NCBI RefSeq assembly: GCF_017875325.1
Contig: NZ_JAGGMN010000001.1
Coordinates: forward strand, 1,570,140 to 1,634,139
Source of the DNA: Methanofollis sp. W23
GTDB lineage: Archaea; Halobacteriota; Methanomicrobia; Methanomicrobiales; Methanofollaceae
Direction of reading: 5' to 3'
Length of the DNA: 64,000 nucleotides
In this document: positions 6,019-60,894 of the stretch, in pieces
Layout: every line of letters starts with the position of its first letter
Position numbering within the stretch: position 1 is the first letter of the stretch
The notes under the pieces: model-generated
The model's input: only the letters and a program-made list of their open reading frames with translations
What the model was told of the DNA's origin: nothing
The model's database searches: none
Program-made: the position numbers and the translations under genes

Positions 6019-6837
6019 TGGCCGGGGGCTCGCCGCCCCCCGCTCCCCCCCACATGATAGAGCGGGGACTGCAACCCCCTCTTCATGGTCGTCTATTGTG
6101 CCTTCCCGGTCCTATCTTCGTCCCTGGGGTCCGGGCGGCACTCGCCTCCGGCGCGAGCATGAAGGAAGGCGATTCGGTCACGCTCGCACCTGGAAGAGGG
6201 GAGGGATTCTGCACAGCCCCTCTCTGCACATCCGGGGTTTCTGAAAATCCACCCCTGATCCAGGCTTCTCTTCCTCCCTTTTCAGGGGCGTACTCTTGGT
6301 CCATGGCGTTTTGTATTACTATGGATCATATGTTCCTCCTGTGGGCCTTGTGGGGGGCGGTTTCCCCCTCGCGTTGGAGAAAATACCGGCATTCCGCCAG
6401 GATCTGAAATGGAGCCTGATCCGGCCCTGGATCAGAGGGTCAGTCCCGGGATCTGGGGACGATATGGCCGTATTTGGGGGGGGGGTCGGCGGGGAGAGAC
6501 CAGGACCCAAGGGTGAGGGGAAGGCACGTCGTTTAGAGGTGCCACTCCATGGACCCCCCACGTGAAGATAGGTCGTGGACGGCATTAATCCTCTTCATGG
6601 CTCTCAATTCTGCCTTCCCGGTCCACTCTTCGTCACAGGGGGCCGGGGGAGCCGCACCCCGAGCATGAAGACGAAAAAAGACGTGATGATCGGATGTGCC
6701 GCCCTCATTGGAGAATTTACACCATTCTCTCGCGCCGGGGGACAGCGACCAATACATCTTCCCTGCCACAAGAAATGTTACCAGATCTCCTCACGCACCC
6801 CACGCGTCATCTCATACCCCCGCCAGACCCTCTCCCG
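6019..6837. repeat. repeat island between leuS and alkD
   Basis: Gene-free gap between two converging genes. An inverted H1 hairpin is at about 6019-6075. A link with CCCTCTTCATGGTC follows, then an H2 hairpin at 6098-6170 with GCCTTCCC/GGAAGGC arms, an E module (ACGCTCGCACC) and a degenerate right TIR at 6201-6218. A second, weaker link-H2 copy is at about 6565-6665, with its right half lost. I see nothing coding in 6220-6560; the open frames there have no ribosome site and no recognisable protein. The 6700-6837 stretch looks unique. Confidence 0.75.
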
Positions 6838-7551: not shown

Positions 7552-8570
7552 GAGGAGTGCTTGGGGGCGGAAACAATAAGAGTTGTGAAAAGACCGTCAG
7601 GGCGGGGGAGACGAGAAGGTCTGGTGATCTTCACTTCCCATTCTGGATGGACTCTCCTGTAGGGTTGGAGACATACCAGGGGACTGGCACGTCCAGGCGA
7701 AGGTGCGGCATGGACTTCAGGGTCAAAAAACGGCCCTGTAGAAACCCGTACCAATTCTCGGTGCGAGGGCGATTCAACCGCCTTCCCCTATCTTTTCGCC
7801 GGGGGCGCGTGCCCCCCTGACCCCAGGGATGAAGATCGGGCCGGGAAGGCACACTCAATCGCCATGAAGAGCGTAATGCCGTCCACCACCTCTCGAATCG
7901 CACGCGGGGGACCGGGGGGGCGGCGGCCAAGCCCCCAGCCAGAGATACCTGTCCAGAGGATCTCTACAGAACCCGAATTTCAGAGAATATGGTTCAGGCA
8001 GGGAAAGCAGAGAGATGGCCATGAAGAAGAAGGTACAATCCGCCGCCCGTCTTCACATGAGGGTGCCCCGGAGAGATCATCAAGAACATTTCTACAATGC
8101 CGCGACACAGAAATCTTCCCTCTCTCCAGAGGAGAGTGTGCATCTCCCCCTCCCCTCATCTTCACGCCCGGGGCGCGGCCCCCGGATCCCCTGAGATGGA
8201 AAAAATCGTGTAGGAAAGGCAGAGTCGAAGTTCTCGAAGGAGAGTGCGCCGTCCTGTGCCTGTCTTCGAAGCCGACCATCCTCCCACAGAGACCTATCAG
8301 GAATCCTTCTCCAGAGCCGAGTATACAGACCTCCCGCCGAGCTATCAGAGCGCATCCAGAATATCTGGCCACAATACCTGACATGATGAAATCCCTCTCT
8401 AAAAAATAGAGAATACCGTTCTTTCATTGATATTGCCGCCCCACCAGAGAGAACCACGCAATCAAGCCCCATTTCACAGACCAAACTCCATATTTCGTCG
8501 TATTCTTGCGTCGCACCGGGTCCGGGAAATTCATACAATCTGTTTAACATATTTGACCGAAAAATCAAAA
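7552..8570. repeat. repeat island upstream of the surface-protein locus
   Basis: Divergent gap of about 1.1 kb. It holds one complete short copy: left TIR 7731-7745, E module, inverted H2 7777-7856 (GCCTTCCC...GGGAAGGC), link ATCGCCATGAAGAG, H1 7886-7940 and right TIR 7956-7974, about 244 bp in all. A decayed second copy follows, ending in a TIR-like TTTCTACAATG at about 8084-8095. A third GC-rich H2 remnant lies at 8140-8200. From 8230 to 8570 the sequence is lower in GC and shows no clear module. The minus-strand frame at 8092-8568 has no ribosome site and no recognisable protein. Confidence 0.75.
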
Positions 8571-8629: not shown

Positions 8630-11600
8630 ATGAAATCGAAAAAAGATCGACCATATACATTATCACATTCTTCTCATCCAGAACAGTGGATAAAACCGGG
8701 ATTGTTTCTCCTTGTGCTCCTCCTTGCCGGTCTCCTCCTCGCGGCGCCGGTCTCGGCGGCGTCCGAGATATTCCAGACGACCGAGGTGACGGTCGTCAAA
8801 CTGGCCGAGGACGGGGAGACCGTGCTTGACGAGCGGACCGTGAACTACACCTGGATGGAGGAGAACCTCCCGGTGGTCGGGGACGGCGTGACGCATTATT
8901 ATATGCAGGGGATAACATGCGACCTGGATAATCTCTGGGACCCTGAAGAAAAGGAAAATATCGTGGATTACCATGCCATGCGGGGCACCGACGTTCGCGA
9001 CCTCTGCAACCTGGTCGGCGGGATGGGGCCTGATGATATCATCTATATCTACCCGAACGACAACTACGGAGCGGCGAGGCACCCGTACAAGAACGTCTAT
9101 TACACCGACACCGAGCACGGGGGCAACCCCGAGCAGGGGCCGCTGGTCCTGACCTGGTGGCGGCCAGACGACGGGTATGTGCCTGATTATCAGAGCGGGA
9201 TGCGCACCTTCTTCTTTGCGACCACGACAAACGCGGATGGGCAGTACGTCTTTGGGAACGACGATATGCGCCGGTTCCTGGACAAGGAGTACTGGACCTT
9301 TTATGAGGAATTTCCGTGCTCAAAGTCACAGTGCCAGAAGTACGTGAAGAAAATCGAGATCAAGAGCCATGAGCCGGCACCCCTCTTCCCGATCACCGTC
9401 GAGGCCAACCAGACCACCGGTTACTTCCCCCTGACCGTGCAGTTCACCGGCACGACCGAGGCAAAGTCGCCGAAGGCCTGGCACTGGGACTTCGGCGACG
9501 GGACGTCTGCAGACGGGCAGAACCTAACCCACACCTATGAGGAGGCCGGGCTCTTCGATGTGAGCCTCACGGTCACGGCCGCAGACGGGACGGCGACAAA
9601 GACCCGCCACCAGTTCATCGCGGCGCAGGAGCGACCCGTTGCGACGACTCTGGACGTCTTCCCTCCTGAGGCGACGGTGCTCATCGACGGGACACAGGTC
9701 TTCACGGCGATGGTCCGCGACCAGAAGGGACGCGTGATGAAGGACGTCGCGGTCGAGTGGTCGAGTTCCAACACCGCCGTCGGGACGATCGACGACGGGG
9801 TCTTTACGGCCCTGGCCGAGGGGACGACAATAGTCACCGCCTCGGCCGCCGGGATCAGCGGGACGGCCGAGGTCAGCGTGGTCCCAGTCCCGCCCGAACC
9901 AAAGACCTGGTACGTGGACGACGACGGTCCGGCGAACTTCACGTCCATCCAGGAGGCCGTCTATGCCTGCAACCCCGGCGACACGGTCGTGGTGAAGGAC
10001 GGCGAGTACACCGAGAACGTGGTGGTGGACCGGGCGATCGTGCTCAGGTCGGAGAACGGTCCTGAGACGACGGTCGTGACGGCAAAAAGTGTTGTAAAGC
10101 CCCCGATCATGGTGACCGGGAACAATGCAACGGTCAGCGGCATGACGGTCCAGCAGACCGGCAACCCGGCGGCAGGGATCGGGCTTGAAGGGGCGGAGAA
10201 TTGTACGGTGGAAGGGAATGTCGCCACCGGATGTTACCGCGGGATCCACCTGAACTCCTCAGCGTCCTGCACGCTCAGAGGAAATCATGTCACCAGTATC
10301 GATGAGGAGGGGATTGTCCTCTCTTCGTCCTCAGAGAACACCATCGTCGACAACAACGTAAAGTGGCTCGAGATCATCTCATCGAACACCAACACCATTA
10401 CTAACAACACCGTCGAGGGCGGGACATTCGGGATCTGGATGACGTCCTCAGACAACTGTACGATCACGCACAATCAGATATCAAAAATGTATAACCCCAT
10501 CTTTCTCAAATCTTCATCCAACAACACGATCTCCAGAAATACCCTCAAAGGAGATTGTGGTTTCACCTTTGAAGCAAAAACAGCCGACAACGAGATCTAT
10601 CTCAACACTGTACTCTGCGGGGAGGGGCTGAACTACCACTACTCCGCAATGTACCCGAACTCCTGGAACTCCACTGTTCCTCTCGACTACTCCTACAACA
10701 ATACCGATCAGAAAGGATATCTGGGCAACTACTGGAACTGTGCTCAGCCTGATGCGGACCTGAATGGGATCGGAGACATTCCACACAAAATGGGCTATCG
10801 AGAGGTCTACGACCCCTACCCGCTCGTCGCCCCGGCCGAGAACTACAAGATCCTCCCACCGATGCAGACGATCGTCCACGGCCCGTACATCACCGGCACC
10901 ACCGGGACTGAGACGACGATCAACTGGCGGACCGACGTCCCGACGACCGGGCGGGTGGACTATGCCCCGACGGCGGCGTACTCGGACAGGAACTACACCC
11001 TGAGCGTCACCGACGGAGAGGAGACCTGTCTCCACCATGTCAGCCTCACCGACCTCAAACCTGGGACGACCTATCATTACCAGGTGACGGCCGGGCGGAA
11101 TATGACGCAGGACTTCACCTTCGAGACCTTCCCTGAGGCAGGGGAGACGTTCACCTTCATCACCTACGGCGACTCGCAGGAGCAGAAGCCCTACTACACA
11201 CAACTGGAGATGCACAAACTCGTTGCGGACAGGATCGCAGAGGAGGAGGAGGACGCCCTCTTCATCCTCCACCTCGGCGATGTGGTGAGCCAGGCGGACG
11301 ACCCCACCGAGTGGGACCGGTTCTTTGCATCGGCAAAGCCGATGCTTGCGAACACCACGCTGTACACAGTCCTCGGCAACCATGAGGAGGACTATAAGGA
11401 CCTCGCCGACACGACCTTCGCCCTGCCTCAGTGGTACTCCTTCGACTGCGGCGACCTCCATGTGGTGGTGCTGGACTCCACCGGCATGAAGGGCAGCGAG
11501 ATGGCCGAACAGACCAAATGGCTCAAGGACGACCTCAAGGATGACAAGGCCCGCTGGACGGTCGGCGCCTTCCACCACCCGCCGTACAACTCGGGCGGAC

Positions 11601-12799
11601 ACCATGCGAGCGGGTGGCCAGACACCGAGTGGCAGGAGGTTTTCAAGGAGAAGGAGACGGCCGCCATCTTCAACGGCCATGTCCATTCATACCAGCGCCA
11701 TGCGGACAATGGCACGCAGTTCCTCACCGTGGCGACCGGCGGGGGGATGCAGTACGAACTCAACGAGGAGAAGGAACCTGAGTACCAGGCAGGGATGGAA
11801 TATATCCTGGGCTATGAGCGGGTGACGGTGGACCCGGTGAACGCCACGGTGACGATGGAGTTCGTGCCGGTGGCCGACATCACAGATGGCGGCAAGAAAG
11901 TCGGCGGCATCCGCCCGCCAGGCGAGATCTTCGACCGGGTAGTGATCGGCGGGGCCGGCGGGGTCGACCTGGCGCCGGTGACGATCACGACCGATGGCCC
12001 GGCGGTGGCCGGGGAGAATGCCACGGTGGTCGTGACGGTCAAGAACATCGGCGGGACCGAGGCGGGGGACTTTGCGGTCAACCTCACCGTCGATGACGCA
12101 CCTCTCGGGGAGCAGGAGGCCGAGAGTCTTCCTGCCGGCGCGACAGCGACCTTCGCCTTCGCCTGGGCACCCACGGAATCAGGGCCTCATACTTTCGTGG
12201 CCATGGTCGAGGGGCCACCAGGCGAGTACGAGCGCGAGAACAATGTGATGGAAAAGCAGCTCTATGTCCTCTCGCCAGGCGAGGGCCCGGCCTTCAAAGA
12301 AGGGGTGGTCGAACTCGCCCCTGGCTGGAACCTTGTCTCGGTCCCGAAGCGACTGGCGCCAGACAATGACACGGCCCTGATCTTCTCAGAGGTCGACTCG
12401 GCCGGGCACTCGCTCTGCATCTTCGATGCCGGGACGCAGTGCTGGCAGGCCATCGGCCCAGACGACAAGGTCACGCCTCTCACCGGGGTGCTTGTCTATG
12501 CCGAGGATGCGGCCGCCGTGCCCCTCACCTTCGACGCCGACCCCGTTCATGCGCCGCCGGCAAAATCTCTCTCCAGGGGCTGGAACTTTGTCGGTGCGGC
12601 CGGGACCGATCCAGAACCTGCCGCCCTCGCCCTCGTCTCGGCTGAGGGGCAGTGGGAGCAGTGCACCGGCTACGACGCCCTGCGCCAGGTCTACGAGGCG
12701 CCGGTGACCGCCGACCTCCCTGACCACGCCCTCTTCCCTGGCCGCGGCTACTGGCTCGGCATGAACGAGAACGGCACCCTCGCGGGGACCGCACTCTGA
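8630..12799 (+). CDS. secreted multidomain protein with purple-acid-phosphatase-like domain
   Basis: Large exported protein (1389 residues). A signal peptide ends near residue 43 (PVSA). In order: a sulfite-oxidase-like module without its cysteine (about 50-245), shared with the next two genes; a PKD domain (255-330); an Ig-like Big_2 domain (335-420); NosD/PbH1 beta-helix repeats (425-745); a fibronectin-like domain and a calcineurin-type phosphoesterase (745-1080); a CARDB domain (1115-1215); and a paired GWN repeat region (1225-1389). The phosphoesterase keeps D848 (GDS), HLGD, GNHE (H918), HHPP and GHVH (H1017, H1019), so a dinuclear metal site looks complete. There is no C-terminal membrane anchor. 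Substrate unknown; surface polysaccharide or phosphate scavenging are guesses. Confidence 0.85.
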   Translation: MKSKKDRPYTLSHSSHPEQWIKPGLFLLVLLLAGLLLAAPVSAASEIFQTTEVTVVKLAEDGETVLDERTVNYTWMEENLPVVGDGVTHYYMQGITCDLDNLWDPEEKENIVDYHAMRGTDVRDLCNLVGGMGPDDIIYIYPNDNYGAARHPYKNVYYTDTEHGGNPEQGPLVLTWWRPDDGYVPDYQSGMRTFFFATTTNADGQYVFGNDDMRRFLDKEYWTFYEEFPCSKSQCQKYVKKIEIKSHEPAPLFPITVEANQTTGYFPLTVQFTGTTEAKSPKAWHWDFGDGTSADGQNLTHTYEEAGLFDVSLTVTAADGTATKTRHQFIAAQERPVATTLDVFPPEATVLIDGTQVFTAMVRDQKGRVMKDVAVEWSSSNTAVGTIDDGVFTALAEGTTIVTASAAGISGTAEVSVVPVPPEPKTWYVDDDGPANFTSIQEAVYACNPGDTVVVKDGEYTENVVVDRAIVLRSENGPETTVVTAKSVVKPPIMVTGNNATVSGMTVQQTGNPAAGIGLEGAENCTVEGNVATGCYRGIHLNSSASCTLRGNHVTSIDEEGIVLSSSSENTIVDNNVKWLEIISSNTNTITNNTVEGGTFGIWMTSSDNCTITHNQISKMYNPIFLKSSSNNTISRNTLKGDCGFTFEAKTADNEIYLNTVLCGEGLNYHYSAMYPNSWNSTVPLDYSYNNTDQKGYLGNYWNCAQPDADLNGIGDIPHKMGYREVYDPYPLVAPAENYKILPPMQTIVHGPYITGTTGTETTINWRTDVPTTGRVDYAPTAAYSDRNYTLSVTDGEETCLHHVSLTDLKPGTTYHYQVTAGRNMTQDFTFETFPEAGETFTFITYGDSQEQKPYYTQLEMHKLVADRIAEEEEDALFILHLGDVVSQADDPTEWDRFFASAKPMLANTTLYTVLGNHEEDYKDLADTTFALPQWYSFDCGDLHVVVLDSTGMKGSEMAEQTKWLKDDLKDDKARWTVGAFHHPPYNSGGHHASGWPDTEWQEVFKEKETAAIFNGHVHSYQRHADNGTQFLTVATGGGMQYELNEEKEPEYQAGMEYILGYERVTVDPVNATVTMEFVPVADITDGGKKVGGIRPPGEIFDRVVIGGAGGVDLAPVTITTDGPAVAGENATVVVTVKNIGGTEAGDFAVNLTVDDAPLGEQEAESLPAGATATFAFAWAPTESGPHTFVAMVEGPPGEYERENNVMEKQLYVLSPGEGPAFKEGVVELAPGWNLVSVPKRLAPDNDTALIFSEVDSAGHSLCIFDAGTQCWQAIGPDDKVTPLTGVLVYAEDAAAVPLTFDADPVHAPPAKSLSRGWNFVGAAGTDPEPAALALVSAEGQWEQCTGYDALRQVYEAPVTADLPDHALFPGRGYWLGMNENGTLAGTAL

Positions 12800-13110
12800 G
12801 CGCACCCGATATGATCGGTAGCGCAGAATACAAATCTGTTTATTTTTTTCGTTGTTCACGATATAATGGCCAGATGATTGAAACAGAGCATATCCCCCAA
12901 TGAATGCTCTCCTTTTCCAATAATGCCGACACTTCAGAGAGAATAATCGACTTTATACAAGGAATTTCGAGATTCGATGCCCTCAAACCGGCACATCCAG
13001 GTCAACGACGTAAAGGTAATTTGGTTAATATATTTTACACATCCATGAAAAGAGATTTATAGCCCGCCCGATCGAGTATTCATTGTCGCTGATGCGACAG
13101 GTAAGAAATT
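12800..13110 (+). promoter_or_regulatory. leader and promoter region of the 406-residue surface protein
   Basis: Gap of 311 bases without repeat modules. A T7 tract at 12843-12849 can end the upstream transcript. TTTATAG at 13056-13062, after an A/G-rich stretch, is the best TATA box and predicts a start near 13086. AGGT at 13099-13102 sits 8 bases before ATG 13111. A second AT-rich block (TTAATATATTTT) is at about 13026-13037. Nothing coding is seen. Confidence 0.5.
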
Positions 13111-14331
13111 ATGAACTCCATTAGAATCCGTCTTACAAAAAGAACCCCCATGGCATTGCTCTGTCTATGCATTGCCATCGCATTGCTGGTCGTACCGGCG
13201 GCGGCGGGGACGACAAATGTCACCGTGACCCGGTACTGCGACAACAACTATGCTGTCGTCGACATCTCGAACAACTTCACGTACCAGGAACTCATGACCA
13301 TCGGCGAGTACCAGAGCAACGGCGAGGTCATCATGCAGGGCCTGGTCACCTACGATGACTGGGTCGACGCTGGTATGGACCCGGCCGAGTTCTACACCGA
13401 AGAGAACTCAGGATGGGACCCCACTGAGAGCGTCCGCCTCAGTTACTACGGCGCCCACAACGGCACCCTGGTCGAGGACATCGTCGAAGAGATCGGCGGC
13501 ATGCCCGACGGCTCAGAACTTGAAGTCGCCGACTCGACCTATCCAAGGGCGACCAGACACTTCAGCAAGACCAATGTCTACACCCCCACCACTGGCCAGG
13601 GCGAGATGGTCCTCTGCTGGTGGGACTCTGAGTACGGCTTTGCCGACACCTGGAAGAAAGGCATGCGGCTCTTCTTCTACACCCCAGATGACCTCAAACT
13701 CAGCAACATGGACATGAAGGAAGTCTTCGCCCCATGGTATTACCAGTTCTCCACCGACAAGAACAACGAGTCCTTCTCCGGTCCGTCGGCAAAGGGCCTC
13801 TCGGTTCAGACCGTCGACACCATCAACATCTACCCCCCGCACCGCTATGACTTCGCCACCGGCGGCGACACCGTCAAGTACGCGTACGAGGGCGGCGTGA
13901 CCGGCCTGCCGACCGCCAACGATGTGCCGAGCGCTACCACTGTCGACACCTCGAAGATCGCCGCCAATGACAGCGTCTATGAGCAGACCGCCAGTGAAGT
14001 CAACGGCGAGTACGCCGCCCAGCGCTTCGTCTTCAACGTCACCGAGAGTGCGAGCAACATCGAGAAGCTCGCCTTCACCTGGGACGGCACCAGCAGCCAC
14101 GACAACCCCAACGCAGACCAGGGCGCCACCACCTACATCTGGAAGAACGGCACCGGTTACGAGACCCTCTCCGGCGACATCACCTCAAACATCGGTGACT
14201 ACGTCGTCAATGGGAATGTCACGGTGCTCGTGAAGCAGAACACGGCGCAGTTCGAGGACGAAGACGAGAATACATTCCTTTCTCTTCTATCAACCGACTA
14301 CGTTAAGCTCGTGGTGACCCACCACCACTAA
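13111..14331 (+). CDS. secreted protein with sulfite-oxidase-like module
   Basis: Exported 406-residue protein: signal peptide to about residue 32 (PAAAG), then a module of about 200 residues homologous to residues 50-245 of the preceding gene product and to a middle region of the next one. Shared marks are the VEEIGGMPDG turn, the GEMVLCWWDSEYG strand, a GMRLFFYTPDD strand and a NMDM turn. A second beta-rich domain (about 245-406) ends in VTHHH with no membrane anchor or sorting motif. Three AxNAS/T-like sites suggest N-glycosylation. Its exact role is unknown; the three adjacent relatives suggest a duplicated surface component. The oligo-T at 14339 follows. Confidence 0.8.
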   Translation: MNSIRIRLTKRTPMALLCLCIAIALLVVPAAAGTTNVTVTRYCDNNYAVVDISNNFTYQELMTIGEYQSNGEVIMQGLVTYDDWVDAGMDPAEFYTEENSGWDPTESVRLSYYGAHNGTLVEDIVEEIGGMPDGSELEVADSTYPRATRHFSKTNVYTPTTGQGEMVLCWWDSEYGFADTWKKGMRLFFYTPDDLKLSNMDMKEVFAPWYYQFSTDKNNESFSGPSAKGLSVQTVDTINIYPPHRYDFATGGDTVKYAYEGGVTGLPTANDVPSATTVDTSKIAANDSVYEQTASEVNGEYAAQRFVFNVTESASNIEKLAFTWDGTSSHDNPNADQGATTYIWKNGTGYETLSGDITSNIGDYVVNGNVTVLVKQNTAQFEDEDENTFLSLLSTDYVKLVVTHHH

Positions 14332-14338
14332 TCAACCC

Positions 14339-14350
14339 TTTTTTTCTTTT
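14339..14350 (+). terminator. oligo-T terminator
   Basis: T7-C-T4 begins 7 bases after the stop of the 406-residue surface protein gene. The next gene may still be read through, as only 35 bases separate the two genes. Confidence 0.5.
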
Positions 14351-14366
14351 CACTATGGTGATTTTC

Positions 14367-17300
14367 ATGAAAAAATCGATTGGAATTTTCTGTCTTATTC
14401 TGCTTGCTCTCCTCATCGCACCGGCGGCGGCGACGACTCTCTATGTCGACGACGACGGTGGCGAGGGAGTCTACACCACCATCCAGGGAGCGCTCGACGC
14501 CGCCGCAGAAGGCGACACGATCATTATCAGAGCTGGAACCTATTCTCATTTTCAGACTGATAAGCCATACCTCACCATCTCAGGTGAAGGGGCTGATCTC
14601 GTCACGGTCGATTTAAATGGAGTTAGCCTCGAGATCAGAGGAACAGAAACAACACTCGAAGGACTTACGATCCTCAAAGCCTCTATGCTGTGGGTATATG
14701 GTCAAGATTGCATTATCAGAGACTGTGTCTTTGACGCGATGACAGGATCAAATGCCATAGATATTCGTGCGTCGAATTGTACGGTTGTAAACAACAAAAT
14801 CCAAGATCTAAAATCAGATAGCACAGGAATCAATGTAAAAGGCGTATCCCCCACGATCGTCAACAACACCTTCGTCAACTTCCCAGGAAGACACAGTGCC
14901 CTATATCTCAGAACAGAAGCTGCAAACGCGACCGTCGAAGACAACGTCTTCGAGAACTGCACATGTCCTTACACCACGACTCTCCAATATGCGACAGGTT
15001 GCACCATCACCAACAACACCTTCAAGGACAACACGGGTGACGCGATCAGAATCTGGAAAGCAGAAGCAACCAACAACACCATCACCAGAAACACCTTCAT
15101 ACGAAACGGCGGCATCATCTACTGGAGAGAGGCAGGCGACAACAACAGGATCTTCCTCAACACCTTCACTGACAATAAAGGAGCCTTCACCATTCACGAC
15201 GGCACCGTCGCCCCCACCCTCACCCACTGGAACTCCACCGCCCCCCTCACCTACACCTACGATGGCACCACCCACACCGGCTACCTCGGCAACTCCTGGT
15301 CCGACTACGAGGACATCGACGAGGACGGCGACGGCGTCATCGACACCCAGTACGACCTCCCAGACGGCCTGGGCACCGATTACGCCCCGCTGACCGCAGC
15401 AGGCGAGAAGTATAACGTCCTCGTCCCGCAGACGCGGTACGTCGACGACGACGGCGGGGACGGCGTCTACACCACCATTCAGGAGGCAGTGGACGCCGCA
15501 GAGTTCGTCGACACCATCGTCGTCAGGAACGGCACCTACACCGAGAACGTGCTCGTCGACAAGGGCCTGACCATCAGGGCCGAGAACGGGACAGAGGCCG
15601 TGACCGTCACCGCCGCCTCCCCTGAGAAACCGGTCTTCGACCTCAAGGCTGACGGCATCACCGTCGAAGGCTTCTCAGTCCGCGGCCCGACGAACGAACA
15701 TGTCGCCGGCATCGAGAGCGTCGGCTACGACGACTGCCGCATCATCGGCAACGACTGCGGCGGGGCCTGCTACAACGGCATCCACCTCGGCGGCGACGCC
15801 ACCGGCACCCTCATCGAGGCAAACACCTGCCATGACAACACCCGCCGGGGCATCAGCCTCAGGGACGACGTCACCGGCACCACGGTGTACAACAACACCT
15901 GCTGGAACAACGCAGACGACGAACTCTGCGTCAAGGACCAAGCCGCCGACAACGTCATCTGGGCCAACGCCTTCTTCGGCACCGTCGAGTGCCTCAACGT
16001 CAACACCTACCACTCGCCCGACGAGGTGACCTACACCTATGACGGCACCGACCACACCGGCTATGTCGGCAACTACTACAGTGGCTACGAGGGCATCGAC
16101 GAGGACAACAACGGCATCGGCGACGATCCGATGTCTTTCGGCGACTACAAGGATGAGTACCCAATGATGGGCATCTGGCAGGGCGATGCGATCGCAACAC
16201 CAGAGCCGATCCTCACCACCGTCTCCATCGAACCCGAGACCTTCGAGGCCGAGACCGGGGAGACCTGGCAGTTCAACGCCACCGGCCTCAACTGGGACGG
16301 CACCGAGATCCCCGGACCCCTCGTCTTCACATGGGCGAGCAGCGAGCCTGACGTCGGCACCGTGAACGAGACCGGATGGTTCGAGGCCGTCGCACCGGGC
16401 ACCGCCACCCTCACCGCCGCATGCGACGGGGTCGAAGGCACCGCCCAGGTCACCGTCGTCGCCCCAGACTCCCTCCCCTCCATCGAGATCATCAGGTACG
16501 CCCCTGACGGCATCACCGTCGAGGAGAAAAAGAGCGTCACCATCAGGTGGATGCAGCGCCACCTCCCGGTGCTCGGCGGGGAGAACGGCACCGAACTCCA
16601 CTTCCAGAGCATCACCCTCGACGAGGACGACCTCTGGAACCCTGAAGAGACCATCAACCTCGACAAGATCAACAACACTGTGAAAGGCACGGCCCTTGCC
16701 GACCTCTGCGACCTCGTCGGAGGGGTCTACGAAGGCGGCGAGATCCAGTTCACCGGCAGAGACAAATTCCCCGGAAAACTTCCATCCTCCGCAGTCCTCG
16801 CCCCCCACGAACGCCAGGGCCCGGCCATGATCGCATGGTGGGACGCCGAAGACGGCGAGTACCCCGAATGGAGCGAAGGCCCGCAGCTCTTCTTCTTCAC
16901 TCCAGACAGGGTCTTCGGCAACGACGACATGCGAGTCTGTTTCGACGAGGCCTACCACCACTACTGGATGAAGTGGCCCTCTGCCGCAGGCATGTCAGTC
17001 AAGAAGATCGCCACCATCAAGATCGTCCCCGAACCCAGGGAAGACTGGAACCTCGACCTCTCAGGTGCAGTCGTCAGGACCATCGACCGCTCCTACTATG
17101 AGCAGGCCGTCAGTTGCTCCGCCGCCAAACACGGCGCGACCTGGACCGACGACGGCAAGACCTGGTCAGGCGTACCCCTCTGGCTCCTCTGCGGATGGGT
17201 CGACGACGCCGACCAGCACGCCCCATTCCGCGACGACCTCGCCGACGCAGGCTACACCGTCGTCCTCACTGACTACGGGGATGACGGCATCGCTGGCACC

Positions 17301-18014
17301 GAAGACGACCGCGCCGTCGAGTTCGCCAGCGCCGAGGTGAAGAAGAACAACAACATCATCCTTGCCAACGAGATCAACCAGTGGCCGCTCGAAGAGGGCG
17401 ACTGGCCGCTCAAACTCGTCGGTGACGACGTGCCGGCCGAGAAGCGGCTTGGCAGCGTCGACGCGATCAGGCTCGACGGCCTCACCGGCAGCGACGAGGG
17501 CATGGCTCTCACGCTCCACAGGGGCTGGAACTTTGTCTCGGTCCCGCGGACCCTCGCGCCAGGCAACGACACCGCAGAGATCTTCGCAGGTATCGACTCG
17601 GCAGGCCACTCGATCCTCACCTTCGACGCCGCCACCGGACTCTGGAAGACCCTTGGCAAGAACGACACGGTCAGACCTCTCGACGGCATCTGGATCTATG
17701 CCACCCAGAGCACCAGCACCCAGCTCATCTTCGACCCGGCCAAACCAGAGACCCCGCCGACCAAACGGCTTACCGAAGGCTGGAACGCCATCGGCTACTC
17801 TGACACCAATCCAGAACCGACCAGAGACGCCCTCGCCTCGGTCAAAGATACCTGGGCCATCCTCATCGGCTACGACGCCGAGAGTCAGGCATATGAACAC
17901 TCGGCCATCAACGGCGCCGTCGGAAGCCACACCGACACCCTCCCGATGATTCCAGGGAAGGGTTACTGGCTGTATGTCCGTGCGGACGGCACCCTGGCGG
18001 CCATCAGCACCTAA
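14367..18014 (+). CDS. secreted beta-helix protein with tandem sulfite-oxidase-like modules
   Basis: Exported protein of 1215 residues. ATG 14367 is preferred over the in-frame ATG 14355 because GGTGA at 14358-14362 is correctly spaced for it and the protein then begins with a normal signal peptide. Two blocks of NosD-type beta-helix repeats follow, each opening with YVDDDGG and TTIQ (about 24 and 355). Then come a Big_2 domain (610-690), one module shared with the two upstream genes (695-890), and a second one (890-1045) whose GVPLWLLCGWVDD and ANEINQWPLEEGDWP stretches resemble the molybdopterin domain of sulfite oxidase but lack its cysteine context. The C-terminus repeats the GWN pair region of the 1389-residue protein. 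Probably structural or adhesive. Confidence 0.85.
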   Translation: MKKSIGIFCLILLALLIAPAAATTLYVDDDGGEGVYTTIQGALDAAAEGDTIIIRAGTYSHFQTDKPYLTISGEGADLVTVDLNGVSLEIRGTETTLEGLTILKASMLWVYGQDCIIRDCVFDAMTGSNAIDIRASNCTVVNNKIQDLKSDSTGINVKGVSPTIVNNTFVNFPGRHSALYLRTEAANATVEDNVFENCTCPYTTTLQYATGCTITNNTFKDNTGDAIRIWKAEATNNTITRNTFIRNGGIIYWREAGDNNRIFLNTFTDNKGAFTIHDGTVAPTLTHWNSTAPLTYTYDGTTHTGYLGNSWSDYEDIDEDGDGVIDTQYDLPDGLGTDYAPLTAAGEKYNVLVPQTRYVDDDGGDGVYTTIQEAVDAAEFVDTIVVRNGTYTENVLVDKGLTIRAENGTEAVTVTAASPEKPVFDLKADGITVEGFSVRGPTNEHVAGIESVGYDDCRIIGNDCGGACYNGIHLGGDATGTLIEANTCHDNTRRGISLRDDVTGTTVYNNTCWNNADDELCVKDQAADNVIWANAFFGTVECLNVNTYHSPDEVTYTYDGTDHTGYVGNYYSGYEGIDEDNNGIGDDPMSFGDYKDEYPMMGIWQGDAIATPEPILTTVSIEPETFEAETGETWQFNATGLNWDGTEIPGPLVFTWASSEPDVGTVNETGWFEAVAPGTATLTAACDGVEGTAQVTVVAPDSLPSIEIIRYAPDGITVEEKKSVTIRWMQRHLPVLGGENGTELHFQSITLDEDDLWNPEETINLDKINNTVKGTALADLCDLVGGVYEGGEIQFTGRDKFPGKLPSSAVLAPHERQGPAMIAWWDAEDGEYPEWSEGPQLFFFTPDRVFGNDDMRVCFDEAYHHYWMKWPSAAGMSVKKIATIKIVPEPREDWNLDLSGAVVRTIDRSYYEQAVSCSAAKHGATWTDDGKTWSGVPLWLLCGWVDDADQHAPFRDDLADAGYTVVLTDYGDDGIAGTEDDRAVEFASAEVKKNNNIILANEINQWPLEEGDWPLKLVGDDVPAEKRLGSVDAIRLDGLTGSDEGMALTLHRGWNFVSVPRTLAPGNDTAEIFAGIDSAGHSILTFDAATGLWKTLGKNDTVRPLDGIWIYATQSTSTQLIFDPAKPETPPTKRLTEGWNAIGYSDTNPEPTRDALASVKDTWAILIGYDAESQAYEHSAINGAVGSHTDTLPMIPGKGYWLYVRADGTLAAIST

Positions 18015-18031
18015 TTTTTTGAGGTAGATCC

Positions 18032-19075
18032 ATGACGAACACAACAAAAGTATCCATCGTTCTCATCCTCTCCCTCGCCCTTGTCGCAGGCGTCATGGCG
18101 GCAGAAGAGGTGCCGCAGATGCCAGACGAGTACAAAGGCAAGGTCACCATCGACGGCAAACTGGCCCCTGCGGGCACCACCATCACCGCCCTCATCGACG
18201 GCGAGGTGCGCGGCACCCTGACCGTCGATAAGGAAGGCACCTTCGGCGGCAACAAAAACATCGACCAGAACCTGGCAGTCACCGGGTATGCCGACGACAA
18301 AGGCAAGACCGTCTCCTTCACGGTGAACGGGAAACCTGCCGGGCATGCCACCACCTTCAGGCCCGGCGAGGTGCACGCCATTGCCCTGACGGCAAAGGGC
18401 GATGAGAGTTCTCCAGGAGGCCCGAGCAGCCCTGGAGGAAGAGGTGGGGGGAGATCGGCCGCGGAAACCCTCGCTCCTGACCTCAGGGCAGGGGCCGTCA
18501 CCGTCAACACCACCCTGACCGTCACCGCCGACGACCGCACCGCCTGTCTCACCGTCCTCGAAGGCACCAGGGTCAGCAGCGACACCCCTGACCCGCTCGA
18601 CGCGATCACCATCACCCCACTTACGGCAGGCGACCTGCCCGAGATCCCGGCGGACGCGACCTTCACCTTCGCCGGACTTGCGGTCGAGTGCGGGCCAGAA
18701 GGGACCGCCTTCGACCCACCGGCCTCGCTCACCTTCACCGTCCCGGCAGAGACCTGGGCAGACCTCGACCCTGACCGCCTTGTCGTGAAATGGTACGACC
18801 CCGCCGCAGGGAGATGGGTGGACCTTGAGACCACCGTCGACCCTGAGACCATGACCATCACCGCCGAGGTCTCGCACTTCAGCACCTTCGCCCTCTTCAC
18901 CGAGGCCCCGACTGCCGGCAACGCCGACCTTCCAGGCGCCAGGGTCACCGACCAGACCGGGAAAGATGCCAGCGGCGGCGAAGGCACAGACTGGACCATC
19001 CCGGTCATCGGGATCGTCCTGGTCCTGGTCGTCGCTGCGGGCGCCGGACTCTATCTGAAGAAGAAAAAAGAATAA
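18032..19075 (+). CDS. membrane-anchored surface protein
   Basis: Signal peptide to about residue 23, a small carboxypeptidase-regulatory-like beta domain (25-120, with VTIDGKLAPAGTTITALIDG), a Gly/Ser/Arg linker (125-147), a beta-sandwich region of the type found in methanogen surface proteins (150-290), and a C-terminal membrane helix (about 322-341) ending in KKKKE. It is the only member of the four-gene locus with an obvious anchor, so it may tether the secreted neighbours; this is inference. GAGGT at 18021-18025 serves ATG 18032. The gene starts 17 bases after its neighbour, so it is probably cotranscribed. Confidence 0.8.
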   Translation: MTNTTKVSIVLILSLALVAGVMAAEEVPQMPDEYKGKVTIDGKLAPAGTTITALIDGEVRGTLTVDKEGTFGGNKNIDQNLAVTGYADDKGKTVSFTVNGKPAGHATTFRPGEVHAIALTAKGDESSPGGPSSPGGRGGGRSAAETLAPDLRAGAVTVNTTLTVTADDRTACLTVLEGTRVSSDTPDPLDAITITPLTAGDLPEIPADATFTFAGLAVECGPEGTAFDPPASLTFTVPAETWADLDPDRLVVKWYDPAAGRWVDLETTVDPETMTITAEVSHFSTFALFTEAPTAGNADLPGARVTDQTGKDASGGEGTDWTIPVIGIVLVLVVAAGAGLYLKKKKE

Positions 19076-19077
19076 AC

Positions 19078-19749
19078 GGCTGTGTAGAATTCCTCTAGAT
19101 AGCCATCTCGGCGGGGGGCTCGCCGCCCCCCGAACCCCCCCGTCCAGGATAGGCGGGGAACGGCAATCCCCTCTTCATGATCATTGTTTGTGCCTTCCCA
19201 CCCCTATCTTCATCCCGGGAGTCCGAGCGGCACTCGTCCCCGGCACAGTGGTGTGGGAAGGCATGAACGCATGGGTGCGCAACGAAGAGGAGAGGATATT
19301 TCCACCACATCCATCGCTATCTCCTGAGAGGGAGAGAGTTGGAGACTTTTGGGATATGCTCTCTGTCAAAAGTATGAGAATTTCAGTTCTGTAGAAACCC
19401 TTGCCAATTCTTAGAATATGCCTGACAGAATCGCCTTCACTTATACTCACGCCGGGGGCGCGTGCCGCCCGCATCATCGGGATGAAGATGAATTCCAGAA
19501 GGCAGAATCGTTGGACCTGAAGAGGGGTTGTCCGTCCTTTCTCGGCCTTCCAGGTCCACTCCTCGTCCTCGAGGCCAGGTGAAAACAAACAAAAACGAGT
19601 CCGAAACCCTGGCACGATCGATAGAGAGGGAAATTGATGCACACGCTCTCCTGAAGGGAATATGGATCTCTCCAGGGTCAAAAAAACAGAACCGCTCACA
19701 CTCTGCGGCGATCGCCCCCTGAGATGAGGGAAAAAAAGAATAAACGAGT
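19078..19749. repeat. repeat island after the surface locus
   Basis: Convergent gap. Left TIR GGCTGTGTAGAATTCCTC at 19079-19096, inverted H1 19104-19160, link CCCCTCTTCATGATCATT, H2 19190-19262 (GCCTTCCC/GGGAAGGC), then a less conserved stretch and an inner TIR at 19386-19400. A decayed inverted H2 follows at about 19430-19507 and a link remnant at 19508-19530. The rest (19540-19740) is mostly unique, with an A7 run and ACAGAACCG near 19680-19695 that may be a worn right TIR. No gene seen. Confidence 0.75.
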
Positions 19750-21758: not shown

Positions 21759-21833
21759 GGGCCTGTGGCTTAGCCAGGATAGAGCGCCGGGCTTCTAACC
21801 CGGACGCCGGGGGTTCGAATCCCTCCAGGCCCG
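21759..21833 (+). tRNA. tRNA-Arg (anticodon TCT)
   Basis: All four stems fold: acceptor GGGCCTG/CAGGCCC (21759-21765 with 21826-21832), D stem GCTT/GAGC, anticodon stem CCGGG/CCCGG with loop CTTCTAA (21792-21798), and T stem with loop TTCGAAT. Anticodon TCT reads AGA. The discriminator is G and CCA is not encoded. No intron. A TTTAATTA box about 40 bases upstream is a plausible TATA element, and a T7 run at 21858 can end the transcript. Confidence 0.97.
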
Positions 21834-21864: not shown

Positions 21865-23530
21865 CTGCACGACTCTGTTCATGCAGTCGTACCTGATCTC
21901 TCCTGCCCTTCCCGCACAAGTGTGACTCCCCCGCCCGCCCAATTGTCTCTTGCCTGGGCTCTTCAAAAGCCCCTAACTTTGAAGTGTTCACTCCGCTCAC
22001 AGATCGAAAAGCAGAGATTTTCTTGAACCCATTCGTTCGTTTCCATCGGCCTGCGAAGAATTTGTCTTCCCAACTCCCTCTGGCCGTCAGCGATGATCAA
22101 CCCACCTGCCGCCCCCACCGCTCCTCTGTTCGGGGGTCCGGGGGCAACGCCCCCGGGATGAAGATTGGATCAGGAAGTCATATTCAAAATCAATGAAGAG
22201 GGAGTGCCATCCACGACCAATCGTGCGCGGGGGGTTCAGGAGGACGACTGGAAGGAGTCGAGAAGATCTCTGATCTTCAAATGGTCAGTCCCACGCCAGA
22301 GAGAGATATCCCTTTATCGATAGTGGGGAAAGCCATAAACTTTCACTGTCGAGCACAAAGAACTTGGAAATATTTTCAAGGATCTTCATCAGCCATCTCA
22401 CACCACAGATTCATCGAAGACATTCTTCTTCTCATCTTCGCACTCCCGTTGAGTGATCACTCCAGAGAATTTTTCCAGAGCAGGAACTCTCGAACATGTG
22501 AACAGTCCGCGATACGATGAAGAGGGAGGACAACCTTCATCTTCTATTCGTCTTCACTGCGACCTCACTGACGATGATCTTTGGGCTCTGTAGAAATCCT
22601 CTCGATGAATCCCTCTGACTGAGGGCTAGCCATCGAGTTCGCTCCGCTCACACCCCACCACACGATAGGGTGAGGGCGGCAGTACCCCCTTCACGATCAT
22701 TTATTCTGCCTTCCTGACTCTATCTTGCTCCCGGGGGTCCGGGAGCTCGGCCCCCGGCGAGATGATCTGGGAAGGGGGGTGAGTTGCACCTGCATCGAAA
22801 ATTGGCGAGGGTCTCTACAGAATCGATCTTCGCACCTTTCCAGCAAAATTTCAGCATCTGAGGGAAAGATCAATCTCCAGGGAAAGGCATGGGATCTCAC
22901 ACTACTATAGTATAGAGAGAGAGACGCGTCTCTCTCTGTACTCTTCGAGGTGCACGCGTGCCTCGACCGCCTTCTTCAATGCTCGTCCCGGGGGCGAGTG
23001 CCGCCCGGACCCCCAGGATGAAGATTGGGGCGGGAAGGCACAACCAACGATCATGAAGAGAGAGGTGCCATCCCCGCGACATAGTTCCATCTAAAGGAAT
23101 ACCATGAAAATGATCCAGAAGATCGCCTCTCAGGGTTTCCATAATGATTTGAGTCCACCAAACACCGTCTGAACTGACACGAAGATTTCGGATACATCTT
23201 CCGAATGATCAGGCCTCTGCCTTCCCTGTCCTATCTTCGTCGTGGGGGGTCCGGGGGCAACGCCCCCGACATGGTGTTGTGGGAAGGCGTGATGATCCGA
23301 CGTGCCGCCCTGATCATAGAATCTTCCCTGCCATCTCGCGCCGGGGGGAAACCCCCCGGTCCCCCCACGACGAAGATAGCCGAGGGGCGGCGATGAAACA
23401 CGATCCCCACCGGTTCTCCTCTCTTGAAAAGAGAGAGAAAGAGAGCACGTGACGAGAAATTTTCATCATGTATGCTTGAACCCCACGTTCATGCCCGATT
23501 CTACAGAGCCAAAAAAAGAAATTTAAAAAT
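21865..23530. repeat. 1.7 kb repeat island between tRNA-Arg and metG
   Basis: The largest gap in the window. A worn inverted H2/H3 is at 22105-22175, link at 22176-22215 and truncated H1 at 22216-22250. A complete short copy spans 22584-22823: TIR GGCTCTGTAGAAATCCTC, worn H1, link, H2 22708-22775, E module and right TIR (GGTCTCTACAGAATCG). An inverted H2 lies at 22965-23040 with link and part of R6 at 23100-23160. Then H2 23217-23290, inverted H3 23330-23395, R4 23445-23490 and right TIR 23493-23505, which abuts the metG terminator. Stretches 21870-22100 and 22260-22580 look unique and non-coding. Confidence 0.75.
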
Positions 23531-25578: not shown

Positions 25579-26085
25579 TTCAGTGGTCCTGGTGAGAGGG
25601 TGGTGACGCCAAACCTGGTGCAGGGGGACGGGCGTGTACCCCTCGAAGCACAGCCTTACGGCACCCTCCCCTGCAGGCAGGCATCGGTGATCTGTCAGTG
25701 TGGTCGCGCCCTCCTCGAACCTGAGCATTTTTTGACCCTGGAGAAAACTTCGCCTTTTCGTGGGTCACATATGATTCAGCCGCCTTCCTACCCCTTTGGC
25801 CGGGGGCTCTGCCCCCGGACCCCCGGGAGGAAGATAGGGTCGGGAAGGCTGAATCGATGACCATCAAGAGAGTGGTGCCGTCCTCGACCTATCGTGGCGC
25901 GGGGGGTTCGGGGGGCGGCCAGGCCCCCCGACAGGGAGATTCATCACGAGGATTTCTACAGAGCCATTTTTACAAAGAGCATATCCCAAAAAACTCTTGG
26001 GTGAACATCCCCTCGAACAAAAGTGCGTCCTTCCAGAAATTCGAAACGCTCTCCTCCTGATGAATAGTGGAGGATTGCGTCCCGT
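25579..26085. repeat. repeat island with a complete short copy
   Basis: Divergent gap between metG and an unknown gene. A complete short copy spans 25734-25965: worn left TIR after a T7 tract (GACCCTGGAGAAAACTT), inverted H2 25776-25852 with a GCCTTCC/GGAAGGC outer stem extended by GATTCAGC/GCTGAATC, link ATGACCATCAAGAGAG, H1 25886-25935 and right TIR 25948-25965 (GAGGATTTCTACAGAGCC). No gene seen in the flanking 25579-25730 or 25966-26085. Confidence 0.8.
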
Positions 26086-28642: not shown

Positions 28643-28716
28643 GCCCTAGTAGCTCAGACTGGGAGAGCGCCAGACTGAAGATCTGGTTGTCCCCGGTTCA
28701 AATCCGGGCTGGGGCA
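28643..28716 (+). tRNA. tRNA-Phe (anticodon GAA)
   Basis: Acceptor GCCCTAG (28643-28649) pairs with CTGGGGC (28709-28715) using two G-T pairs; D arm GCTC...GAGC; anticodon stem CCAGA/TCTGG with loop CTGAAGA (28675-28681), anticodon GAA; T arm CCCGG/CCGGG with loop TTCAAAT. Discriminator A, no encoded CCA, no intron. TTTATTAA about 30 bases upstream fits a TATA box. A T7 run follows at 28764. Confidence 0.97.
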
Positions 28717-29670: not shown

Positions 29671-31190
29671 AGAGGCGCATAACTGGCTCTGTAGAACCCC
29701 TCTCCTCTTGTGTGGGGGAGACATGTGTTACTCCTCTGGCCGGGGGGCATCCCACGGGGCGGGAAGGCAGAATAGATGACCCTAAAGAGAGTGCTGCCCT
29801 CCTCGACCTATCATGTGGCGGGGGGTTCGGGGGGTGGCCAGAGAATTTTTGTCGCCCTGTTCGCACCTGTGCACCGGCATACACCTCTTCGCACCCCATA
29901 CCTGCCACCGAACAAATGATTTTTAGAACGCCGTTCATCACTATGGCTCCATTCGTTCAGTTCTCGTCTTCGTGTGCACCCGGATCCAGACCGCACACAC
30001 ACACCCACAGAGACCAGGAGAGATCAAGGGTGGGGCGTGTGCTCTCTTTTTGGTGCAATATAGTACTATGAGAGAGAGAGATCTCTCTCCTCTCTTTAGA
30101 ATAGGTACTCCACGCCCGTTCCTCTGTCCGCGTCCATGGTACTTTTTCAGTGCAATCCCGGTGCAGAGCGGGTGCACATGTGCCAACTCCCCAGGCGCCC
30201 GACCCCGTGTGGAGATGGGCAGAGGACGGCATCCCATCTTTCAAGAAATCCAGCCCTGTAGAGATCCTCGTGATGAATCTCTCTGGTGGGGGGCTTGGCC
30301 GCCCCTGGTGAGATGATGGGGAAGAGGGGCGAGTCACGCTCACTCCAGGAATTCGTGAGGGTTTACCATGAAAATGATCCTGACGATAATCTTTTCGGGT
30401 TTTTATAAGAATTTCAACCATCCAGATCTCTTTGAAGATTATATGCAGATTACAGAGACGCCTTCATCATGATCGGTGTTCTGCCTTCCCGACCCTATCG
30501 CCATCCTGGGGGTCCGGGCGGCACTCGCCCCCGGCGAGAACGTGAGGGAAGGCGTGATGATCAGGTGTGCCACCTCAGATCGTAGATTTTTCCTGTCATC
30601 TCGCGCCGGGGACGGCAACAAAGTGGTGGTCCCATGGGGGGTCCTGCTCTAACAGGGGAGCACGGATCCACACACTCTGGAGACCAATGATCATGTTCAT
30701 CACGTATGCGTGAGCCGGGGGCTCATGCCAGATTCTACAGAACCGCTCTGTAGAAATCATCGTGACAGTTCTCTTCGCCGAGTGAATGACCACTCGAAGA
30801 TTTCCAATCATCTCGACAGCTCGAAAAACGGCTCTGTAGAACCCCTCTTGATGGTTCTCTTCGACGAGGGGCTGGCCGCCCCCAGCATGACTGTGTGGGA
30901 AGGCGATTGAGTCACCCTTGCACCGAGAAGAAGTGAGAGTTTCTAAAAAACCCGAAAATTGAAGATTTTCTCATGCTCGCTCCGCTCGCACCCCGCGTGA
31001 AGATCGGTGGCGGACGGCATTTCCTTCTCCATGATCATTGAGTGTGCCTTCCCGCCCCGGTCTTCATCCCCTGCGTTCGAGGGCAGAGTCTCCAAGCACG
31101 GAGAGGTGGGACGGTACGCCGCTCAGAACTTTTATTCCATATGCCTGAACCAGGAGTTCTTGAGAAATTCTTCAGAACCAGAAAAAAAAG
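29671..31190. repeat. 1.5 kb mosaic repeat island
   Basis: Convergent gap packed with partial copies. Left TIR 29685-29702 with a truncated inverted H2, link (ATGACCCTAAAGAGAG) and H1 29810-29850. 29860-30240 shows no clear module apart from a GAGAGAGAGATCTCTCTC dyad at 30069-30086. Then TIR 30253-30269 with truncated H1, R6 at 30352-30425, H2 30478-30560, H3 remnant 30590-30625, and R4 30690-30730 ending in two TIRs back to back (30731-30760). Another TIR 30834-30852 begins a worn copy that ends in TTTCTAAAAAACCC at about 30943. A mixed H2/H3 hairpin sits at 31040-31125. Nothing coding is evident. Confidence 0.7.
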
Positions 31191-35019: not shown

Positions 35020-35940
35020 GAGGGCGCAACACACCCCTGGACCTTCCAACCCGCACACATCATCATCGGTGGGACACGAACTCTCCCTCATCCCACCTCT
35101 TCTTTTTTGGGGCCTGTAGAGTGGCTTCCTTTTCCCGACGCGAGTAAAATGCTCCAACTTCCCCTCAGTTTCTTGCCAGGGGTTCATCGAATGTTTTGTC
35201 TTCTCATGTCCGCTCTCGCTCGTCCCCTGATTGGCCCCCAGGACGACGATTGAAATGGGAAAACAAGGGCGATGAGTGTGAAGACGAGAGGCGGCCCCCT
35301 GCAGACCTTCATCCGCGAGGGGACCGGGGGCGGCACGCCCCCCAGTGTAGGAGGGTTCAGAATTTCGGCTCTGTAGAATGAGCATGAGGCGAGAACATGC
35401 CTCAAGCATACGAGATGAACATTTTTCGTTGCTGGATCATTCTATTTTAAGACCGGAGAATTGGTGAGGATCATGTTCCATCGCCGCCCCCACCTCTCTT
35501 CGTCGTGGAGGGTCCGGGGGGCACTCGCCCCCTGGTGCGAGATTCCAGGGAAGTTGCTGCGATTGAGGGCGGCACGCCTGATCGACGTGCCTTCCCCCAT
35601 GTTTGTGCCGGGGGCGCTGCCCCCGGACCCCTGGAACAAAGATTGGACCGGGAAGGCACTATCAATGATCATGAAGAGAGTATTGCCGTTCGCCGCCTAT
35701 CTTCGGCGCGGGGGGGTTCGGGGGGCGGCCAAGCCCCCCGTCGAAGAGAGCCCTCGAGATGGATTTCTACAGGGCCGAAATCTCAAATTTCGAGCATTCA
35801 AGACTATCTTTGATCTGCGGGCCCTTTAGAAGACGAGATATTCTACAGAGTCAAAATTGCGCTAATGCGGGTGCTGCTCCTCATGAAGCCTCATCCCGCG
35901 TCACATGCAGGCAAAGGGAGAACCGCAACACAGAAATAGA
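35020..35940. repeat. repeat island with a complete long copy
   Basis: A T6 tract and worn left TIR (GGCCTGTAGAG) are at 35104-35120, followed by a degenerate H1-type region to 35350. A complete long copy spans 35364-35780: TIR GGCTCTGTAGAATG, reversed R4 (CAAGCATACGAGATGAA), H3 35484-35575 with a GCCGCCCC/GGGCGGC outer stem, inverted H2 35588-35668, link ATGATCATGAAGAGAG, H1 35690-35745 and right TIR 35764-35780. Another right-type TIR (ATTCTACAGAGTC) follows at 35850-35862. No gene seen. Confidence 0.8.
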
Positions 35941-42772: not shown

Positions 42773-43642
42773 CCTCACCCGCGGCCGGGAATCGTCTGCT
42801 GCTCGCGCCGTGGACTCTGTGCTCGAAGATCAGAGTTTTTCTCGACGACACGAAGAACGTCTCTGTAGATCTCCTCCCCTATTCATGGTGTGAACATGAC
42901 TCCTCCTTCTCATTCACGCATACATGATGAACATGATCGTGGGTCTCCAGAGGGTGTGGGCCAGTTTTTCCCCTTGAGCGCGGGACTCCATGAGGGGATC
43001 ACCACCCGCCTGCCGCCCCCGCCTCTCCTCGTTGTGGGGGGTCCGGGGGGGTGCAACCCCCAGCGCGAGATGACAGGGATGACTCTACGATCTGGGGCGG
43101 CACGAATGATCATCACGCCTTCCCCCACGCTCTCGCCTGGGGCGCGGCGCCCCGGACCCCCGAGACGGCGAGAGGAGGGGGAAGGCAGATCGCCGATCAT
43201 GCTGAAGGCGCCTCTCTCATCTTCAACGAGATCAGGATGGTTCAAATTCTCATACAAACCTGGAGAGATAATCGTCAGGATCATCTTCATGGTAAACCCT
43301 CAGTTCTTTTGGTTCGAGTATGATTCAACCGCCCTCCCCCCTCGTCTCGCCGGGGACGAGTGCTGCTCGGACCCCCGGGATGAAGATTGGGCAGGAAGGC
43401 ATATTCGTAATCCCTGGAGAGGGAGTGTCCTCCTCGACCCATCATGGTGTGGGGGGGGGCGGGGGACGGCCGTGAGCGCCCCCCGTCAGAGAGAGTCATC
43501 CAGAAGATTTCTACAGAGCCAGAATTCCTGGATATGCTTTAGATCTCAAGTCTCAGGTGGTGGCGTGCCATCCCCCGCGAGAGGCGCCAGGTCCGGCAAA
43601 GATATATCATGGCCCAGGTGCACTTCCCGCCGAGGGGGAGAG
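42773..43642. repeat. repeat island before the oxidoreductase operon
   Basis: Left TIR 42859-42876 (GTCTCTGTAGATCTCCTC), reversed R4 42895-42930, H3 43000-43105 (GCCGCCCC/GGGGCGGC), inverted H2 43113-43190, reversed R6 43240-43300, a second inverted H2 43325-43402, link, H1 43425-43480 and right TIR 43503-43520. The copy is about 660 bp, a long form with an extra R6-H2 segment. The open frame that runs from 42890 through this island is not credible as protein: its residues come from GC-rich repeat DNA. Confidence 0.8.
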
Positions 43643-60868: not shown

Positions 60869-60893
60869 AGGTCGGGGGGGAACGACCTTTTTT
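60869..60893 (+). terminator. hairpin plus oligo-T terminator of the copA operon
   Basis: AGGTCG (60869-60874) pairs with CGACCT (60883-60888) around a GGGGGGAA loop and is followed by a run of T. The T-run is also the outer edge of the next repeat island's TIR. Confidence 0.6.
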
Positions 60894-60894
60894 C

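Follow-up and report, generated by a model that had tools for sequence, protein, structure and literature searches.

The SUOX-family molybdoenzymes (sulfite oxidase, SorT, SoxC and YedY/MsrP; PF00174) have their fold and a DGY-like motif in common with a module that recurs in the surface proteins considered here. Extracellular enzymes of this family are normally loaded with their cofactor inside the cell and exported by the Tat pathway. PruR is a secreted SUOX-fold protein that lacks the Mo-ligand Cys and binds pterins, and it is a signalling protein (PMC13259868). In a review, its site was assigned the residues Trp160, Tyr104 and N/D102 (A. tumefaciens numbering), and its pocket is reportedly too small to hold the whole Mo cofactor (PMC13259868). 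On the transport side, the closest described system is WtpABC, the ABC importer of tungstate and molybdate; its published descriptions include neither a phosphoesterase nor a lipoprotein, and no SUOX-fold proteins that are secreted. WtpA alone was reported to bind tungstate very tightly, with Asp160 of the Pf protein setting tungstate selectivity (PMC10221389).

The window (the whole 64,000-nucleotide stretch that was analysed, G000:C1:1570140-1634139) belongs to the genome of Methanofollis sp. W23, which is 2.9 Mb in size and 99.7% complete. An ORF check recovered, all on the plus strand, the four ORFs, P1 to P4, that a preliminary description of the sequence had placed there. P1 (8630..12799; 1389 aa) is a predicted Sec-exported protein without a twin-arginine motif. 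It begins with the module (8765..9385), and Pfam searches then identified PKD, Big_2, a beta-helix (NosD/Beta_helix; 9899..10876), a purple-acid-phosphatase-like metallophosphoesterase (Pur_ac_phosph_N plus the calcineurin-like Metallophos domain; 10892..11809) and CARDB; sequence comparison placed a GWN-pair domain (12308..12784) at its C-terminus. P2 (13111..14331; 406 aa) is predicted to be secreted and combines a divergent module (13204..13845), assigned the SUOX fold by homology, with a C-terminal domain that has no assigned fold. P3 (14355..18014; 1219 aa), also predicted to be secreted, contains beta-helix regions, Big_2, a module (16476..17036), a second SUOX domain that we call the S type (17037..17492) and a C-terminal GWN-pair domain (17508..18011). 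P4 (18032..19075; 347 aa), characterized by the ORF check and by operon comparison, as P3 was in addition to Pfam, is predicted to be secreted and to be anchored in the membrane at its C-terminus, where a hydrophobic stretch is followed by KKKKE. The genes are separated by ~20 bases (P2–P3 and P3–P4) or ~310 bases (P1–P2). No RR motif occurs in the first 30 residues of P1–P4, and all four proteins are likely to reside on the cell surface.

The module is ~190 residues long and occupies aa ~46-252 of P1, ~32-245 of P2 and ~708-894 of P3. Its presence in three consecutive secreted proteins, asserted in the preliminary description, is borne out by pairwise identities of 29-35%, with scores 19-52 SD above those of shuffled sequences. 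The description of a four-gene locus built on this module thus holds for P1, P2 and P3 but not for P4, in which sequence comparison detected no module. Likewise, the sequence marks listed for the module are clear in P1 and P3 but degraded in P2 (DIVEEIGG, SNMDM), while the GWN region does end both P1 and P3 (44% identity, E 2e-38). The genome contains 12 module copies in four areas, and of 61 genomes sampled from the order, 31 gave matches; among named records, the nearest to the P1 module is 97% identical and comes from Methanofollis. The family matches no Pfam model, P1–P4 gave no match to PF00174 at E<=1, and a module profile searched against the sequences of solved structures returned chance hits only. 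A connection to the SUOX family was nevertheless obtained by profile comparison, in which a small lipoprotein of the SUOX type matched both the module (prob 97, E 2e-11) and canonical archaeal SUOX proteins (E 1e-17). PF00174 does match this lipoprotein, as well as a large paralogue encoded at another place in the genome. Two loci (L092:6786-10499 and L091:6927-10505) encode three consecutive modules plus GWN, and their P4-like neighbours are 1527 and 1943 aa long. Five others (L032, L045, L055, L078 and L094) come from bins that carry bacterial labels (Clostridiaceae, Chloroflexi, Peptococcaceae, Anaerolineales and Bacillota), and may represent either archaeal contigs placed in the wrong bin or genes that bacteria have acquired by transfer.

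AlphaFold2 models were built from alignments of relatives, with 63 sequences for the P1 module and 35 for the P3 module together with the S domain. The P1 model was of high confidence (pLDDT 94, pTM 0.90), and its best solved match was PruR (7kom, Z 11.7, 132 of 134 residues aligned), followed by sulfite oxidases at ~11. All matches with Z >5 were SUOX folds, except for one integrative-model chain (9a64), and the first unrelated structure appeared at Z 4.4. In the P3 model, the module and the S domain formed blocks with pLDDT ~95 and ~90, the GWN region being poorly modelled; here PruR 7kom was matched by the module (Z 13.2), and chicken sulfite oxidase 3hbg by the S domain (Z 15.9). The S domain (aa 895-1046) is accordingly predicted to be a second, distinct SUOX-fold domain, which the preliminary description had not separated. 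By these models, the modules of P1 and P3 and the S domain all have the SUOX superfamily fold. The resemblance to the molybdopterin domain noted from sequence is therefore retained, and the structure search that had been suggested as a check gave, for the P1 and P3 models, SUOX folds as the high-Z matches. A new fold was also considered for the module, and is ruled out by the identity of the high-Z matches.

Like PruR, whose chain is covered almost entirely by the structural match (Z 11.7-13.2 for 7kom; other entries are 7kos, 7kp2 and 7rkb), the module is a compact, secreted SUOX-fold unit with no Mo-ligand Cys, as judged from topology, and with a D-x-aromatic motif as putative counterpart of the pterin site. 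The two differ in that the module is archaeal, ~60 residues larger and only 10-14% identical in sequence, and in that modules are arrayed in surface proteins of 270-2000 aa linked to WtpA, whereas PruR is linked to a cyclic-di-GMP enzyme. The D-G-[YFW] motif is highly conserved among 207 modules (D in 203, G in 195, an aromatic residue in 175), and its spacing, together with the DGY motif of SUOX proteins, suggests that D144-G-[YFW]146 is the counterpart of N/D-x-Y in PruR. The residue following a conserved Lys, a candidate counterpart of PruR Trp160, is W in 65/207 modules and Y in 63/207. The earlier suggestion that the fold serves as a binding scaffold is consistent with the predicted folds and with the PruR precedent.

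A further reading is that the P1–P3-type proteins are SUOX-family enzymes that work outside the cell with Mo or W. The SUOX fold itself would fit it, as would the PF00174 relatives encoded next to module genes and two invariant residues of the P3 S domain, a Cys and a His, whose placement relative to the Mo site is uncertain. Several observations make this very improbable. In a profile alignment with canonical archaeal SUOX proteins, the Mo-ligand Cys column of the lipoprotein is occupied by Ser/Thr. In the module, the strand equivalent to the Mo-Cys strand, identified by topology and not by superposition, ends in Gln (Gln93 in P1; 197/207 modules), so that Cys is probably absent from the exact Mo site, in line with the preliminary description. 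The Cys of DLCxLVGG, conserved in 181/207 modules, is positioned in the helix after the Gln93 strand. TatC was not found in this genome at E<=0.001, although the same search was positive in 11 of 14 control genomes, and no heme or other redox domain was found among the scanned proteins. Since neither TatC nor an RR motif in P1–P4 was detected, ordinary SUOX catalysis is unlikely, and so the Sec-exported P1–P4 are unlikely to be ordinary cofactor-loaded enzymes. The window proteins thus differ from SUOX molybdoenzymes in their lack of a detected Mo-ligand Cys, of Tat export and of a PF00174 match. A Cys following a helix in the S domain was considered as a catalytic residue: its spacing to the G-x-P-L motif fits sulfite oxidase, but the model places it before the strand and not at its end, and it is no more than a candidate.

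The P1 phosphoesterase shares its domain pair (PF16656 + PF00149) and six metal ligands (D848, D884, N917, H982, H1017 and H1019) with purple acid phosphatase-like metallophosphoesterases. It differs from them in being fused to a module and in lacking the usual D-x-H His, which is replaced in the sequence GDSQ. The preliminary description was right that the 1389-residue protein joins module, beta-helix and phosphoesterase, but went slightly too far in stating that all metal ligands are present. At the corresponding position (aa 847-852 of P1, window 11168-11185), the phosphoesterases of these loci have GDS or GDT followed by Q in place of D-x-H, and a distinct active site is possible.

To describe the genomic context of the module, ORFs surrounding 72 loci (71 from genome contigs, plus the window and own-genome stretches) were clustered and ranked without prior choice. 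The most frequent neighbour was a substrate-binding protein (48 loci). The SUOX lipoprotein came next, in 32 loci, a permease and a metallophosphoesterase were present in 22 loci each, and an ABC ATPase in 21 (an upper bound because the cluster includes some unrelated ABC ATPases); P4-like proteins, which form two clusters, were found in 17. The representative substrate-binding protein is WtpA, scoring 324-332 bits against a TIGR03730 cut-off of 243. The best matches of the representative permease and ATPase were WtpB (307, under the cut-off of 340) and WtpC (286, under the equivalog cut-off of 440). A recurrent gene order was observed, consisting of a P3-type protein (S-S-S-module-S-GWN), a P4-type protein, a module protein of ~850 aa, a phosphoesterase, a module protein of ~300 aa, the SUOX lipoprotein, WtpA, WtpB and WtpC. 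The WtpA-family and WtpB/WtpC-type genes thus make up the inner half of a conserved operon, wtpB/wtpC-type genes following WtpA in many relatives. The main operon of this genome lies at G000:C1:1313-1326k, where genes for large surface proteins rich in SUOX modules, for a metallophosphoesterase and for the SUOX lipoprotein adjoin that of a dedicated WtpA. The P3 homologue is the first gene of such operons and the P4 homologue the second, and the P1 phosphoesterase is homologous to their stand-alone phosphoesterase. The linkage is concentrated in Methanomicrobiales (35 loci) and Methanosarcinales (7 loci, some of them from Argoarchaeum and ANME-2c), and Methanothrix has it as well.

WtpA was also searched in the same 61 genomes as the module, 30 of which have listed module positions. 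In 29 of these 30 module-bearing genomes, a WtpA gene lies <=1.8 kb from a module gene, the exception being an 88% complete assembly (G007). This link to WtpA, seen in 48 of 72 loci and 29 of 30 genomes, was missing from the "envelope system" of the preliminary description. With three exceptions, linked WtpA genes gave match spans of 849-858 nt, compared with 801-819 nt for all 32 unlinked genes, and in a tree of 67 WtpA sequences the linked ones form one side of a single branch (SH-aLRT 99). A motif also separates them, NPMLDA[AC]GYR in linked WtpA versus DPNxDPCGYR in unlinked WtpA. By these comparisons, the linked WtpA is, nearly always, a distinct subtype separate from that of the classical importer. 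Both kinds occur in this genome, at 1313056 (linked) and 1481528 (unlinked); both genes therefore lie outside 1570140-1634139, and the window locus contains no transporter or wtp gene.

We consider it somewhat probable (roughly 0.55) that the modules are the surface capture part of a system for acquiring W/Mo, or W/Mo-pterin, and that the window encodes a satellite set of it. The computed results behind this reading are the predicted fold, the domain homology, the loss of the lipoprotein Cys, the operon link, the linked WtpA subtype and the TatC result. From them we infer a candidate ligand, an order of hand-over and a role for the phosphoesterase. P1–P3 would display a cofactor-free, PruR-like SUOX-fold ligand-binding module outside the cell, where it would capture a ligand that carries W or Mo. 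This would most probably be tungsto- or molybdopterin, as a metal-pterin, or a breakdown product of one, and otherwise the oxyanion itself. The phosphoesterase would then remove phosphate, and the SUOX lipoprotein would hand the metal oxyanion to WtpA for import. In the satellite set, P1 fuses the module, the phosphoesterase and the GWN domain, and the set, having no transporter of its own, may serve the same one. Counting against the acquisition reading are the absence of a transporter gene from the window locus, the reported size of the PruR pocket (PMC13259868), the metal ligand missing from the phosphoesterase and the possibility that the linkage reflects co-regulation and not joint transport.

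An alternative arrangement, in which the modules bind tungstate or molybdate directly and act as a surface sponge that concentrates scarce metal for WtpA with no pterin involved, would fit the adjacency of modules and WtpA. It would also fit the linked WtpA itself, in which both Ser of the site are conserved, as is the Asp corresponding to Pf Asp160, judging from alignment to AF_0094 and not from coordinates. We regard it as unlikely, given that WtpA alone is reported to be a very tight tungstate binder (PMC10221389) and that the use of a pterin-binding fold and a phosphoesterase would be left unexplained. The SUOX fold and the phosphoesterase favour a pterin-bound metal over a bare oxyanion, without deciding between them. 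In characterized WtpA, Glu218 directly binds W. In this order, a Ser stands at the equivalent position in linked WtpA and in most of the unlinked ones, the two own WtpA genes (L002:506-1528 and L122:4418-5542) being included in this observation, and tungstate coordination may therefore differ in Methanomicrobiales. Loss of this W ligand was considered as a mark of the linked subtype and ruled out, because Ser is found in both kinds.

It is also conceivable, but quite unlikely, that the modules are PruR-like pterin sensors, or parts of surface signalling or adhesion proteins, and that the Wtp link is regulatory. PruR, which has this fold, is a signalling protein (PMC13259868), the partner domains of the module (PKD, Big_2, CARDB, PEGA and DUF3344, as well as beta-helix) would suit surface proteins of this sort, and satellite copies occur away from wtp. 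However, the wtp-linked loci examined have no recurrent signalling partner; what recurs in them is the phosphoesterase, the lipoprotein and the particular subtype of WtpA.

The preliminary description had regarded the locus as recently expanded, which is not supported. When 117 modules were placed in a tree, the last ancestor shared by any pair of window modules spanned 111-117 of the 117 rows, and the three modules, at 29-35% identity, are among the most distant members of the family; recent tandem duplication within the locus is thus ruled out. The phylogeny of the three copies points instead to a second four-gene block in this genome (G000:C1:428-439k), which shows 66-73% DNA identity to the first over long stretches. 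In the tree, the module of P2 forms a pair with its positional equivalent from that block (100), and the P3 module groups with its own (91) inside a ten-row clade (98), the other rows of which are wtp operon-heading genes from other genera. For the P1 module, the nearest sequences are Methanofollis orthologues. From the grouping of the P2 and P3 modules with their positional counterparts and the level of DNA identity, we conclude that the whole four-gene block was copied, and not recently. Near the second block (L096:16566-19056; G000:C1 about 441.6-444.1k) are genes for two Peripla_BP_2 binding proteins of the metal-chelate/corrinoid type, not Wtp. Some copies may therefore serve another ligand or cofactor, a point that also weighs against the acquisition reading.

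The remainder of the window contains dispersed, mostly intergenic repeats of ~150-370 bp in both orientations (6020-6198, 7780-7982, 19077-19278, 22941-23521, 25727-25974, 30356-30744, 35363-35785, 39210-39600, 42996-43302, 47159-47582, 52845-53560, 60887-61378 and 63812-63995), which share 70-86% identity with one another here and reach 94% with copies in other parts of the genome. The only Rfam matches in the window were two tRNA genes (21759-21833 and 28643-28716), and the scan detected no Moco-type RNA element.

Methanogenesis from CO2 involves formylmethanofuran dehydrogenase, for which W or Mo serves as a cofactor metal, and the supply outside the cell is often very low. While the fold, the importer and the phosphoesterase are each known, their combination, and module genes beside wtp, were not found in the open-access literature. 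A bolder and less probable reading is that methanogens and methane-oxidising archaea scavenge tungsto- or molybdopterin at their surface, in that Cys-less SUOX arrays would catch released cofactor, the phosphoesterase would open it and a dedicated WtpA would import the metal. To our knowledge, a microbial surface system dedicated to scavenging the W/Mo cofactor in finished form has not been described. More generally, a surface apparatus with as many as a dozen copies of the module in one genome, linked to a dedicated WtpA, would show how Methanomicrobiales, Methanosarcinales, ANME-2c, Argoarchaeum and Methanothrix obtain the metal, and would provide a function for a large family that has no Pfam model.
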